A DNA stretch of 45,113 bases from a virus: IMG/VR virus record IMGVR_UViG_3300027969_000162, positions 1 through 45,113 of that record; one strand, 5' to 3'. The notes beneath the pieces are model-generated. The model was not told where the DNA came from, made no database searches, and saw only the letters and a list, made by a program, of their open reading frames with translations. Below, in pieces: positions 3,557 to 9,320 of the stretch. Position numbers and translations under genes: made by a program. Within the stretch, counting starts at the first letter, position 1, and each line of letters starts with the position of its first letter.

Positions 3557-3766
3557 ATGCAAGCATACAAAATAATGGCACGGGACACACGCACAGGCGT
3601 TCGCGTTCAACAACAGGCCCTATCGGGGCAGGTGTTTACAGATCTAGCTGTGGCCAATCTTTTGGCACAGGAATTGGCACAGAAACAATCAGCAAGGTCT
3701 AGATCCAGTTGGGTAGCTGAAGTTTCAGAATACACAGTGGGTGCTAACTCTCGTTCCAATACTTGA
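3557..3766 (+). CDS. Small conserved phage protein
   Basis: The product is 69 residues beginning MQAYKIMARDTRTG, with an AAGGAG ribosome site 7 to 12 bases upstream. The pattern (Tyr-Lys-Ile start, LAQELAQK helix, WVAEVSEYTV ending) fits small proteins I recall next to the preceding gene family in marine phages. It follows the putative virion protein by 30 bases and is probably co-transcribed. Its last 23 bases overlap the convergent oxygenase gene. Function is unknown. Confidence 0.6.
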   Translation: MQAYKIMARDTRTGVRVQQQALSGQVFTDLAVANLLAQELAQKQSARSRSSWVAEVSEYTVGANSRSNT

Positions 3767-4586
3767 ACATTTCTCGAATTGAGACAAAATCGCTAGTGGC
3801 GAAATTTTCGTGAAAAACTCTGTAGGCCATGGCGTCATTCTTAACATACAGTTTCTTGTAGACACATTGTGCATAAAACACTTCCTTGGAGAGCGCATAA
3901 TCGGCATCACAGGCTCTGATGCTGACTGCCACTCTGGGTGTTAGTGAGTCTTGAGTTTTGTGTATGACATCACCGCGCATCAGCAATAGGTCACCCGCTG
4001 CCATGCTGGGAGTCTGTTTAATGTCTTCAATGTTGATGTCCAGTACTGTATAGTCCCCAACTGAATCATCACGCATAATCGTTTTATTGCCCCTTAAGGG
4101 AAATTTCTTTGATCCATGACCTATAAGACGTTGTTGAACTGATTGAGAAATTTGTGGCATGATCACATCAAAGGGTATGACACAGATGCCCGATTGGTCC
4201 CGTTCAGGTTTCACAATGGGTATCCAAAAATTTAAAAAGTTATAAGAATTTTGCCACATGTAGTAGGTGTCATGATCTTGATGCCAATTGTATTTTACAC
4301 ATCTATTATCAAAGTATGTGACACCCGGAAATACACAATTTACAGATAGGTTGGTCTGAGAGTTAACTTGTGTTAAAAAATTAGAAATCTTATCTCGTAC
4401 CCAACGCGGAGTACAGCTCAGTGCAACCATGGCATTTTTGTTCTTGGCAGTATCATGTGCATGGGCAGTCTCGGCCCGGTCATACTCTGTGACCAGCAGC
4501 TGAACTTCGTCAGCAGTTAGGAACTGAGGAATCACTATGAATCCTGCAGTTTCCAGCAGTTTAAGATCTAGGTTGTTTGATTTCAA
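3744..4586 (-). CDS. 2-oxoglutarate/Fe(II)-dependent oxygenase (PhyH-like)
   Basis: The product is 280 residues. The iron triad is visible: His102-Gln-Asp104 in YNWHQDHDTYY, His209 in GDVIHKTQD, and the 2-oxoglutarate-binding Arg218 in LTPRVAVSIR. This pattern and the flanking double-stranded beta-helix fit the phytanoyl-CoA dioxygenase superfamily. Such enzymes hydroxylate small molecules, sugars or protein side chains with O2 and 2-oxoglutarate; the substrate here is unknown. The only plausible start is TTG at 4586, since a stop codon in frame lies shortly upstream. The gene begins 10 bases after the stop of the GNAT-like gene, so translation is probably coupled to it. T4-like phages of aquatic bacteria often carry several such oxygenases. 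Confidence 0.8.
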   Translation of the reverse strand: MKSNNLDLKLLETAGFIVIPQFLTADEVQLLVTEYDRAETAHAHDTAKNKNAMVALSCTPRWVRDKISNFLTQVNSQTNLSVNCVFPGVTYFDNRCVKYNWHQDHDTYYMWQNSYNFLNFWIPIVKPERDQSGICVIPFDVIMPQISQSVQQRLIGHGSKKFPLRGNKTIMRDDSVGDYTVLDINIEDIKQTPSMAAGDLLLMRGDVIHKTQDSLTPRVAVSIRACDADYALSKEVFYAQCVYKKLYVKNDAMAYRVFHENFATSDFVSIREMFKYWNES

Positions 4587-4596
4587 ATCTGCAGTA

Positions 4597-5031
4597 TCAG
4601 TGATACTGATAGTTCACTGAATCTTGGTTTTCTCTAAATGTGGTAGCACCGTTTTTGTGATGAAACCGGCGAGCCATTTCAGTCTTGGGACTCAGAGTCA
4701 CAAAGGTCTTGATCTCGGGTTCAGTGATTTTTATGTCTTGCTGTGCCGCTTCTATCAATCTACGACCTGCACCCGCTGCATATGACCAAATGGTATAGAA
4801 CACTGCTGTTGTGGTATTAACTGCTGCATTGGCCAACTCATCTACTGAGCCTGGAATTTCAGCTAGGAACTTGACACAGGTCACAGCCATGGGCTCACCT
4901 GTTTCGCTTTTTAGCACATAGACTCTGGAGTTTTTATTCACTCTAAAGTCTGCAGGGATCTCGGGGCGAACAGGATCGTCCTTGAGTAGTCTTAGTAATT
5001 CGTCTGTGAGTTCTGTAATTTGTACCAACAT
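4597..5031 (-). CDS. GNAT-like N-acetyltransferase domain protein
   Basis: The product is 144 residues. The core strand RVYVLKSETGEPMAVTCVKF, the AAGAGRRLIEAAQQ segment resembling the acetyl-CoA-binding loop and helix, and the ending ARRFHHKNGATTFRENQDS fit a GNAT fold. The canonical Q/RxxGxG/A loop is only partly preserved (AAGAGRRL). The gene is expressed from the consensus early promoter at 5057..5085 and is followed at 10 bases by the oxygenase. The substrate is unknown; enzymatic activity is an inference from the fold. Confidence 0.5.
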   Translation of the reverse strand: MLVQITELTDELLRLLKDDPVRPEIPADFRVNKNSRVYVLKSETGEPMAVTCVKFLAEIPGSVDELANAAVNTTTAVFYTIWSYAAGAGRRLIEAAQQDIKITEPEIKTFVTLSPKTEMARRFHHKNGATTFRENQDSVNYQYH

Positions 5032-5056: not shown

Positions 5057-5085
5057 ATTATATACTGCTATTTAACCTTTGTCAA
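5057..5085 (-). promoter_or_regulatory. Early sigma70-type promoter, leftward
   Basis: Read on the minus strand, TTGACA (5085..5080) and TATAAT (5062..5057) are both perfect with a 17-base spacer. It drives the GNAT-like and oxygenase genes and is back-to-back with the promoter at 5118. Confidence 0.88.
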
Positions 5086-5117: not shown

Positions 5118-5146
5118 TTGACAGCTAAATATTTTTCGTGTACACT
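5118..5146 (+). promoter_or_regulatory. Early sigma70-type promoter, rightward
   Basis: A perfect TTGACA at 5118..5123 stands 17 bases before TACACT at 5141..5146. An AGGAGA ribosome site follows before the ATG at 5169. Confidence 0.75.
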
Positions 5147-5168
5147 ATATAACTAATAGGAGAATATT

Positions 5169-5864
5169 ATGTTTGGAACCAACTACCTTGATCACTCTGT
5201 GAGCTATCGCTCGGCAGAAGAAGTAAATTCGGCGATGGGCCGTGTTTATGCTCATATGAGTCTTGCTGTTCTTGTATCAATGATTGTGAGTTATTTTGTG
5301 GGTTCGAGCCCAGAATTACTACAATTCTTTTTTACGGGAATCACCAAATGGATTGTGATTTTTGCACCTTTGGTGGCCATATTGGCATTTGCATTTGCTT
5401 CTGAAAATTTTACGCGAACACAGCTACAGCTATTTTTACATGGGTTCGCGGCTCTAATGGGCTTGAGCTTTGCCACAATCTTTGCTGTATTCACCATGGG
5501 CTCAATTGTGTCAGCATTTATGTCAGCGGCTGTGTTGTTTGCAGTGATGTCAGCATACGGCTACTTTACCAAACAGAGTCTAGACAGCATGGGCAAGTTC
5601 ATGATAGTGGGACTAATTGCCATTGTTATTGCTTCAATCATTAACATCTTTATTGGATCAACTGTGATGCAAATGGTGATCTCAGCCCTGGCTGTTATTA
5701 TCTTTTTGGGTCTAACTGCCTATGACACACAGAAGATTCGTGAAGCAGTTTCCATGGATGGCGATACAGGCCGTGAAGAAGTTATTGGTGCATTGACTCT
5801 GTACATGGATTTTATCAACCTGTTTATCAACCTGCTACAGTTATTTGGTATTAAGAAAGATTAA
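5169..5864 (+). CDS. Bax inhibitor-1 / YccA-YbhL family membrane protein
   Basis: The product is 231 residues, a usual length for the family, with about seven hydrophobic helices. The C-terminal signature is clear: GLTAYDTQKIRE followed by ALTLYMDFINLFINLLQLFG, including the acidic residues associated with proton or calcium sensing in BI-1 proteins. In E. coli the family member YccA binds and inhibits the FtsH protease; others act as pH-gated channels. A phage copy could protect the host membrane or phage proteins from FtsH during infection (inference). It has its own early promoter and an AGGAG site, and its stop overlaps the next small gene (TAATG). Confidence 0.88.
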   Translation: MFGTNYLDHSVSYRSAEEVNSAMGRVYAHMSLAVLVSMIVSYFVGSSPELLQFFFTGITKWIVIFAPLVAILAFAFASENFTRTQLQLFLHGFAALMGLSFATIFAVFTMGSIVSAFMSAAVLFAVMSAYGYFTKQSLDSMGKFMIVGLIAIVIASIINIFIGSTVMQMVISALAVIIFLGLTAYDTQKIREAVSMDGDTGREEVIGALTLYMDFINLFINLLQLFGIKKD

Positions 5865-5998
5865 TGTGGCGCATAAAGTATTACTTGACCTCAGGACAGT
5901 TGAGATCTAAAACATTCCCAACTCTAGAAGCGGCCACTAAATTTATAGTGTATTCTATATGCGCTTGGGATGTCTACGACTGTTATAAGATTGATTAA
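5864..5998 (+). CDS. Tiny protein coupled to the BI-1 gene
   Basis: The product is 44 residues beginning MWRIKYYLTSGQLRSK, with a Tyr/Cys-rich C-terminal half (YSICAWDVYDCYKID). Its ATG overlaps the stop of the BI-1-like gene by one base (TAATG), so it is very likely translated by coupling. Its end overlaps the convergent nucleotidyltransferase gene by four bases. No family is recognised. The precise junction spacing argues for a real gene. Confidence 0.5.
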   Translation: MWRIKYYLTSGQLRSKTFPTLEAATKFIVYSICAWDVYDCYKID

Positions 5999-6705
5999 CC
6001 TAAAGACTGGGCCTGTTCTAGGCTCAGCTCTTGATCTTCTAGTTCGCGAATTTTATCTGTAATTTCATCAATAAGGCCTAGGTTTCTCAGTATTTTGAAA
6101 ACTAGGTTTTCTACTGACCACTCGCCCGCACGTTCTAGTCCTGCCTTGCGCATGTTGGTGATTTTTTCTTTGGCCAGTCTCAACCGGTTGAGATCTTTGC
6201 CTAACAGAGCAGATTCAATGTCGTGGATGACTGAATCTTTTTTAGCTTCTACAGCACTATCATCTACTTTGGGTTTTATCTTTTTAGGTTCAACCAGCCA
6301 TTGATTGCGAGCTATGCTATACACTCCGGTGCTGTGGTGTTTTTCTTCTCGGCCTTGAACATAACATTCAACAGGCAGGCCTTTGATAGTGATATTGTGT
6401 TGCTCGGCCCAGAGTGCCTTTTTGGCATTGAATAGTTCGCGGGCCGCTTCTCCTACCTCACCTTGAACGATAATGTGCAGATCTAGGTCGCTGTGTTCAG
6501 TCCAGGTATAGTTGGCATTTGACCCTGTAATTGTGTAATCTACTACATCGAGATCAATGCCTATAAACTCTTGAAATGCGTCGGCAATTTCTTTTAATTT
6601 ATCTGCGACTGCTGGGTCGATTTGATCACCGTCCCATATCTTGGGATTCAGTCGGCGATTGACTGTGATTAGATCTGATCGTTCTTGTAATTCTCTTAGG
6701 CGCAT
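5995..6705 (-). CDS. Nucleotidyltransferase-fold protein
   Basis: The product is 236 residues. Gly61-Ser62 followed by Asp73-x-Asp75 (GSNANYTWTEHSDLDLHII) is the catalytic signature of the polymerase-beta-like nucleotidyltransferase superfamily (MNT/CCA-adding type). The C-terminal 80 residues are a charged helical region (ERAGEWSVENLVFKILRN). It lies at the downstream end of the gp41 operon, three bases after the small gene at 6709. Possible roles are AMPylation or tRNA or small-molecule modification; the substrate is unknown. I recall similar proteins as unnamed conserved genes in aquatic T4-like phages. Confidence 0.65.
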   Translation of the reverse strand: MRLRELQERSDLITVNRRLNPKIWDGDQIDPAVADKLKEIADAFQEFIGIDLDVVDYTITGSNANYTWTEHSDLDLHIIVQGEVGEAARELFNAKKALWAEQHNITIKGLPVECYVQGREEKHHSTGVYSIARNQWLVEPKKIKPKVDDSAVEAKKDSVIHDIESALLGKDLNRLRLAKEKITNMRKAGLERAGEWSVENLVFKILRNLGLIDEITDKIRELEDQELSLEQAQSLG

Positions 6706-8377: not shown

Positions 8378-8407
8378 ATTATACACTAATTGCTAGGTGC
8401 TTTGCAA
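8378..8407 (-). promoter_or_regulatory. Possible sigma70-type promoter before gp41
   Basis: On the minus strand TTGCAA (8407..8402), an 18-base spacer and a perfect TATAAT (8383..8378) are seen inside the end of the carbamoyltransferase gene. The -35 match is modest. Confidence 0.45.
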
Positions 8408-9320
8408 CACCAAAGTTGTATTTCCACTCTCTTTGTTTAGTGTGATACAATACTGCACCGATGCTACTCGATGGGTCTCCAGGACTAGGCAAAGTCCAAC
8501 GATACTGCCACATGGGCTCTACAATTTTTTTATTAGTTGCTGAATTCATAGCGCATCCGCCCATGTATACTAGGCAATCGGTGTTGACTAATTTCTTAGC
8601 TTCTAGCATGACCATGCGGATTTGATCCTCAAACACCATTTGAACAGCAGCGGCAAGATCTTGTTCGTCTTGTAAGGTCTCTATATAAAATGTTTGATCG
8701 TTGACACCTTTGTGAAAATTATAATTTAATTCTAAAAGACCTGTAAAATATTTCTTTATTCTATGATAAAAAACCTTAGGATTACCTTTTTCGGCCATGG
8801 CCTGTAATTTCCATTCGTCCTGAATTGGAGTCATTCCTAGAGCGTGAGTAAATGCACTATAGAACAATCCTAGACTATTTGGATAATTTCTGCTCCAAAC
8901 TTTGCGCATTTCGCCATGCTTGCCTTCCCAGATGGTGGCACATTCGAACTCACCTATGGCGTCGAGTACCACAACAGCACAATGATTAAAAGGACTGGTA
9001 TAGTAGCCTGCGGCTGCGTGACTAGCATGATGCGGTGTATAAGTGATTGGAGCATAATGTTGCGCTTTCATATATCTACGTGGAAGTACTGTCATGTCTA
9101 AGACACGATTCCATTGACCTGCACGTAGTTGTCTTGCCTTCTTTATCCAGGGACGTTCATACCAAAAAATACGATCCGGTGCTCCAACATGTAGGGCATC
9201 AGTAATTATTTTGCTGTCTAACTCATCCGAAACGCCCGTTTGGTTAGACCATAGACTGCCATCCTTGAATACAGCTAGACTAGATCCGTGATTAAGGGCA
9301 TTTACCCCCCACATAATCAT
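8379..9320 (-). CDS. Carbamoyltransferase, N-terminal (NodU/CmcH/TobZ-type) domain only
   Basis: The product is 313 residues. The HHASHAAAGYY motif (His97, His98, His101), the following VVVLDAIGEFE strand (Asp120), GGCAMNSATN and the PGDPSSSIGA motif are diagnostic of the Kae1-like domain of NodU/CmcH O-carbamoyltransferases. These proteins transfer carbamoyl groups to sugars or antibiotics. Full-length family members are about 550 to 600 residues; here the separate C-terminal carbamoyl-phosphate-handling domain is missing. I recall similar short versions from marine T4-like phages, so this is probably a conserved phage form and not a broken gene. The gene sits between gp61 and gp41 in an overlapping operon (ATGA with the 38-residue gene). 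The target might be a nucleotide, DNA base or glycan. Confidence 0.8.
   Translation of the reverse strand: MIMWGVNALNHGSSLAVFKDGSLWSNQTGVSDELDSKIITDALHVGAPDRIFWYERPWIKKARQLRAGQWNRVLDMTVLPRRYMKAQHYAPITYTPHHASHAAAGYYTSPFNHCAVVVLDAIGEFECATIWEGKHGEMRKVWSRNYPNSLGLFYSAFTHALGMTPIQDEWKLQAMAEKGNPKVFYHRIKKYFTGLLELNYNFHKGVNDQTFYIETLQDEQDLAAAVQMVFEDQIRMVMLEAKKLVNTDCLVYMGGCAMNSATNKKIVEPMWQYRWTLPSPGDPSSSIGAVLYHTKQREWKYNFGVAKHLAISV

Follow-up and report, generated by a model that had tools for sequence, protein, structure and literature searches.

A Bax-inhibitor-1 family gene of relatives of jumbo phages and its optional overlapping small gene

Described relatives and the layout of the locus

Two kinds of activity have precedents in the Bax-inhibitor-1 (BI-1)/TMBIM family according to excerpts of the published reports, namely a pH-sensitive cation leak or Ca2+/H+ exchange, for which YetJ, TMBIM5 and viral GAAP (vGAAP) stand, and the restraint of FtsH-type proteases, for which YccA and TMBIM5 stand (PMC9379554, PMC7876416, PMC5451544). 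In the excerpt of PMC9379554, Escherichia coli YccA is described as both a substrate and an inhibitor of FtsH, and TMBIM5, in which the aspartate dyad is kept, as combining Ca2+/H+ exchange with inhibition of the FtsH homologue AFG3L2. Excerpts on viral members state that vGAAP forms cation channels and shares 73% identity with the human protein corresponding to it, that poxvirus TMBIM proteins protect cells from death (PMC5451544), and that Bax1 genes are present in giant viruses (PMC7136201). A search by title or abstract, confined to open-licence papers, found none on Bax-inhibitor genes of phages among the papers listed, and the words Bax, YccA and FtsH were absent from the jumbo- and mega-phage papers searched by term.

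The DNA analysed here, called the window, is a 45-kb viral record (45,113 nucleotides), which encodes a T4-type terminase, tail sheath, tail tube, UvsX, a single-strand DNA-binding protein, helicases and a primase. The named phages nearest to it by terminase are the jumbo phages Pseudomonas PA5oct and its kin (53%), Sinorhizobium Phosso (52%) and Agrobacterium Atu_ph07 (49%); we take the phages of the window's own group to be of freshwater origin, an impression gained from the IMG/VR sources. The locus is made up of the following features:

5057-5085, minus strand: divergent sigma70-type promoter, TTGACA-17-TATAAT, for the gene at 4597-5031 (minus strand), lying back to back with the BI-1 promoter
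5118-5146, plus strand: sigma70-type promoter of the BI-1 gene, TTGACA (from 5118), 17-nt spacer, TACACT (5141-5146), scoring 10/12
5158-5162, plus strand: ribosome-binding site AGGAG of the BI-1 gene
5169-5864, plus strand: BI-1/TMBIM family membrane protein of 231 residues with the dyad D186 and D214, assigned by PF01027, the YetJ match and viral relatives
5864-5998, plus strand: 44-residue partner protein, predicted beta-beta-alpha-beta, overlapping the BI-1 stop codon by one base, assigned by relatives, dN/dS and model
5995-6705, minus strand: nucleotidyltransferase-like gene (PF01909, phrog_36119), a convergent syntenic neighbour

Family membership, occurrence and origin of the phage protein

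The protein encoded at 5169-5864 matches PF01027 (Bax1-I) over residues 21-226 and profile positions 2-207 of 207, that is, over the whole profile, and the score of 174.3 bits stands against a gathering cut-off of 34.1 (E 3.7e-51). This is its sole Pfam match; in PHROGs version 4 no family was found for it at an E value of 0.001. Seven membrane-length helices are present in the predicted model, of which the mean pLDDT is only 66, and the YDTQKI and LYMDFINLF motifs were both located in the sequence. The full-length homologue with this signature, as described in the earlier note, was borne out, and by profile the frame is a complete BI-1 protein, with seven helices predicted. Among proteins of solved structure, the sequence search yielded a single relative, YetJ (E about 2e-10). 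YetJ also accounted for the top eight matches when the model was searched against the PDB, which were weak (E of at least 0.09, TM about 0.5), with fold-aligned identities of about 20-23%.

The earlier note had also proposed a specific link to FtsH by way of YccA, which our comparisons did not uphold. Identity of the window protein to the three E. coli paralogues was highest for YbhL (33%), followed by YccA (20%) and YbhM (16%). On the YccA equivalog model of NCBIfam, NF007765, the window protein scored 33.1 bits, below the cut-off of 353, and E. coli YccA scored 455.8. D186 and D214 of the window protein align with D171 and D195 of YetJ, residues numbered as in the titles of entries 6nq8 (D171E) and 6nq9 (D195E), with a three-residue tag offset inferred for 4pgr; the same two positions are D and D in YbhL and E and S in YccA.

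Conservation was followed in 109 distinct full-length phage copies, which came from loci picked for their BI-1, small or nucleotidyltransferase gene; copies with the same coding sequence were counted a single time, incomplete sequences were left out and start codons were chosen by rule. D186 is kept in all 109 proteins, and at the D214 position 97 have D and 12 have N. Since N also occupies this position in 6 of the 32 bacterial proteins, the full pair is not indispensable. The retained aspartates, together with the failed YccA tests, suggest a pH-sensitive cation leak or Ca2+/H+ exchange as the base activity. The dN/dS values of BI-1 were 0.07-0.135 in the six computable pairs, one further pair being saturated, and the gene is therefore under purifying selection.

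A scan of viral contigs with the window protein confirmed 582 relatives, the best 80 of which are 75-88% identical to it, and a second scan with a different phage copy as the query gave at least 596, a set overlapping the first. As a check independent of selection on BI-1, 15 contigs of at least 60 kb were taken from 80 terminase relatives; BI-1 was found in 11 of them, in one case cut by the contig end, and not in the other 4. Among distinct loci anchored on the nucleotidyltransferase gene with at least 2.3 kb of flank, BI-1 was present in 24 of 34 and absent from 10. When the terminase was sought in 13 long contigs (12 known to hold BI-1 and one chosen for the small gene that also holds it), eight matched, seven at 55-99% and one at 33%, and five gave no match. 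Eight records of named phages have weak, unannotated BI-1-like matches of 22-37% identity, which are putative phage copies. Contamination by host DNA was ruled out by the phage genes of the window and by the recurrence of BI-1 in hundreds of viral contigs. A very divergent phage branch (L097, L120, L127) was seen at the same locus with the motif LYINFINIF, and YDMN was seen in L127.

A tree was built from 60 phage and 33 bacterial BI-1 proteins, the latter being 32 of the best 80 bacterial loci plus YbhL; the phage rows had been thinned at 90% identity, which reduced 142 rows to 93. All phage rows lie beyond a single branch with a support of 100/99. This branch was present in 100% of 200 bootstrap trees; the bootstrap had not fully converged, and some long branches of the tree meet. 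The tree supersedes a quick one that included YccA and gave long-branch warnings. The best bacterial identity of each phage protein is 42-54%, the top value being with a Pelagibacteraceae protein, and the window protein is 42-47% identical to the four alphaproteobacterial proteins aligned with it, a set that does not include Brucella BrBI. Almost all of the best 80 bacterial matches listed are from Alphaproteobacteria; this bacterial side is biased, because the search patterns favour proteins bearing GLTAYDTQ and only the best 80 matches were used. With 582 viral relatives and one phage clade apart from bacteria, the gene is no stray host gene, and the separate clade together with the 42-54% identity points to an old phage-resident branch rather than a recent pick-up from a host. 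We concluded that the gene, as judged from its sequence, belongs to the TMBIM/BI-1 family, has long resided in phages and stands near the alphaproteobacterial/YbhL/YetJ type.

The promoter, the neighbours and the overlapping small gene

The promoter that the earlier note had read upstream of BI-1 was confirmed as TTGACA-17-TACACT, and an AGGAG or AAGGAG precedes the start codon (ATG at 5169 in the window) in most relatives. The nucleotidyltransferase gene was found in the same stretch as BI-1 in 31 of the 109 distinct copies and is convergent with it in all 31. A sigma70-type promoter scoring at least 10/12 is present in 28 of these 31 syntenic copies, at -48 to -63 from the start, versus 3 of the 78 others; about 4% of shuffled upstream regions score as high. 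The association of promoter and locus gave p = 2e-19 by Fisher's test, in which the relatedness of the copies is ignored. In a tree-aware test there were only 3 independent pairs on supported branches, so that no significance is attainable for the link. Host-type promoters such as TTGACA-17-TATAAT drive early genes in T4-like phages, and BI-1 is probably expressed early.

In 22 of the 109 distinct copies a MazG-like gene lies directly upstream of BI-1. A same-strand open frame was flagged just upstream in 80 of the 94 copies without the small gene, by a loose test that flags chance frames too. Elsewhere in the window, three near-identical sigma70-type promoters (at 78, 443 and 822, plus strand), TTGACM-17-TATAAT followed by AAACACATACACA, precede consecutive small genes at the left end, which form a putative early-gene cluster with repeated promoters. 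The gene at 4597-5031 (minus strand), which has its own strong divergent promoter at 5085, encodes 144 residues matching the C-terminal domain of malonyl-CoA decarboxylase (E 7.8e-7). Near the replication genes lie a Nol-like carbamoyltransferase gene (8379-9320, minus strand) and a PhyH-type dioxygenase gene (3744-4586, minus strand).

The last A of the BI-1 stop codon TAA is the first base of the ATG of the small gene, and this one-base TAATG overlap, noticed earlier in the window, is identical in all 15 distinct BI-1/small-gene pairs. A viral scan with the small-gene alignment gave 31 loci, and dN/dS was 0.13-0.25 in seven pairs, which include the six pairs used for BI-1. From the 31 viral relatives, these values and the identical overlap, we concluded that the small frame is a real gene. 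Its product had been called rich in tyrosine and cysteine; the first part holds, with five Tyr in 44 residues, whereas the two Cys are not conserved among distant members. The AlphaFold model is a confident beta-beta-alpha-beta (pLDDT 94.9), for which a fold search against the PDB gave no match better than E 0.5. A single match in a named phage (E 0.8) was taken as chance.

The pairing of the two genes, which the earlier note had suggested looking for in related phages, was found there only in part. The small gene is conserved in relatives, hence not absent from all of them, and stands directly behind BI-1 in 15 of the 109 distinct copies and in 14 of the best 80 of the 582 viral BI-1 loci, but most BI-1 relatives lack it. 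It occurs in 7 of the 15 terminase-anchored contigs, directly behind BI-1 in all seven, and it is absent from three contigs of 347-358 kb that have BI-1. Of its own 31 loci, 14 are directly behind BI-1 and 17 have no BI-1 within the 2-kb flank. In eight of these 17 the small gene follows a protein of 55-61 residues, hydrophobic in character, with the same kind of overlap (L224-L229, L237 and L240, where a one-base stop-start overlap was seen at about 1816-2001); in the other nine a MazG-like gene lies some way upstream of it, and a TATAAT stands between the two. One of the 17 records (383 kb) has BI-1 about 45 kb away, and no BI-1 was found in the other 16, all of which are fragments.

On the BI-1 tree, the presence of the small gene requires nine changes. 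An obligatory partnership was ruled out by the 15 of 109 copies, by the occurrence without BI-1 and by the 347-358-kb contigs. The small gene is a mobile or easily lost accessory and no obligatory subunit, and its 44-residue product is optional to BI-1 and under purifying selection. The suggestion that the peptide tunes BI-1 consequently fared poorly, as most relatives are without it and it also stands behind unrelated genes.

Candidate functions and comparison with known systems

We tentatively favour the reading that phage BI-1 is an early inner-membrane protein with a YetJ/TMBIM-type pH-gated cation activity that may keep the infected membrane working, and would put its chance at a little short of even. 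In the lineage of the window, the gene's own host-type promoter would lead to early expression, and the protein would most likely insert into the host inner membrane. There it may act through the D186/D214 pair as a pH-gated cation (Ca2+/H+) leak or exchanger, and this activity would bound membrane energisation and membrane-protein turnover during the cell remodelling brought about by jumbo phages; the 44-residue protein would be an optional, translationally coupled accessory in the cytosol. The early timing, the localisation, the ion activity and the benefit to infection are what we infer from a locus whose family, aspartate pair, promoter, conserved surroundings, purifying selection and phage clade were observed. 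The ion reading is favoured by the PF01027 and YetJ matches, the dyad, dN/dS, the promoter, the clade, the terminase-anchored occurrence and the TMBIM5 and vGAAP precedents, the last two as far as the excerpts of the reports go. Against it stand the copies with N at D214, the weak model, and the 4 of 15 terminase-anchored contigs and 10 of 34 nucleotidyltransferase loci without BI-1, many of these contigs being fragments.

Alternatively, BI-1 might bind host FtsH, with or without HflKC, and slow the breakdown of proteins required by the phage, whether membrane or regulatory ones. In the excerpted reports YccA inhibits FtsH, TMBIM5 inhibits AFG3L2 despite its aspartate dyad (PMC9379554), and deletion of BI-1 in the alphaproteobacterium Brucella raised the protein levels of HflK and HflC (PMC7876416). 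In one 383-kb contig, G003 (L327, L321), a gene of the Band_7 (stomatin/HflK/C) superfamily lies about 3.2 kb from BI-1, the region spanning 331521-335932 of the record. Band_7 genes were, however, found in only 3 of 39 contigs (1 of 7 and 2 of 32), and near BI-1 in none of the 38 contigs searched other than G003; no FtsH peptidase gene was present in 7 long relatives. The low identity to YccA and the equivalog score also speak against FtsH restraint, as do the two aspartates, lost in YccA and kept in the phage. We lowered this reading but, because TMBIM5 carries both activities in one protein, kept it as a candidate, though an unlikely one.

A role as an anti-suicide factor, in which BI-1 would block membrane-depolarising abortive-infection effectors of the host, is a doubtful proposition. 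The early-type promoter would suit it, and so would the parallel with anti-apoptotic viral TMBIM proteins, namely those that guard against cell death in poxviruses (PMC5451544, excerpt) and the Bax1 genes of giant viruses (PMC7136201, excerpt); the low dN/dS and the 75-88% identity among the best 80 of 582 loci would be less typical of an arms-race gene. Similarly improbable in our estimate is the proposal that BI-1 of jumbo phages delays early cell death as in poxviruses and giant viruses, with an early dyad-bearing channel countering membrane-acting abortive-infection effectors or an FtsH-driven collapse of the membrane, and with the mini-protein as an optional regulator swappable between membrane partners.

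Superinfection exclusion or membrane sealing, by which early BI-1 would keep competing phages out, we consider very unlikely. The T4 exclusion genes encode small multi-span membrane proteins, as the BI-1 gene does under its early-type promoter; but exclusion genes usually vary, whereas one conserved version of BI-1, in which the known family residues are kept, occurs across phages whose terminases are 55-99% identical. That the gene is neutral or was captured from a host only recently, with no selected function in the phage, could be argued only from the frequency of homologues in Alphaproteobacteria (among the best 80 bacterial matches). The dN/dS values and the 100/99 clade already contradict this reading, as do the conserved locus and promoter and the bacterial identity of only 42-54%, and it hardly deserves further weight.

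Comparison with known systems places the cation reading of phage BI-1 in context. The solved Bacillus subtilis YetJ, a pH-sensitive Ca2+ leak, shares with it the family and the aspartate pair, its seven spans being matched by the seven helices predicted for the phage-encoded protein, to which it is only about 20-23% identical. YbhL, the closest of the E. coli paralogues and one with both aspartates, is a host gene whose record says only 'Bax1-I family protein'. YccA, the FtsH modulator, belongs to the same superfamily and departs from the phage protein in identity, at the aspartate positions and by the equivalog cut-off. The FtsH inhibitor CIII of phage lambda is unrelated according to the earlier note, and the one Pfam match of the window protein is to Bax1-I. 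TMBIM5 is dyad-bearing like phage BI-1 and is mitochondrial, the likeness being taken from its description in the excerpted source rather than from an alignment.

The nearest bacterial homologues sampled, those of Alphaproteobacteria such as Pelagibacteraceae, are chromosomal and form a separate clade. Poxvirus GAAP and giant-virus Bax1 are virus-carried TMBIM genes like phage BI-1, but of eukaryotic viruses; to these known viral members the present locus adds a clade of bacterial jumbo phages that is large and evolves separately. With its early-type promoter and conserved locus, this clade would allow the ancestral job of the family to be tested in simple cells that lack apoptosis machinery, and would raise the question of whether phages protect the membrane of the host while they take over the cell. 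The 73% identity of vGAAP to its human counterpart, as given in the excerpted report, contrasts with the at most 54% between the phage clade and any sampled bacterium.
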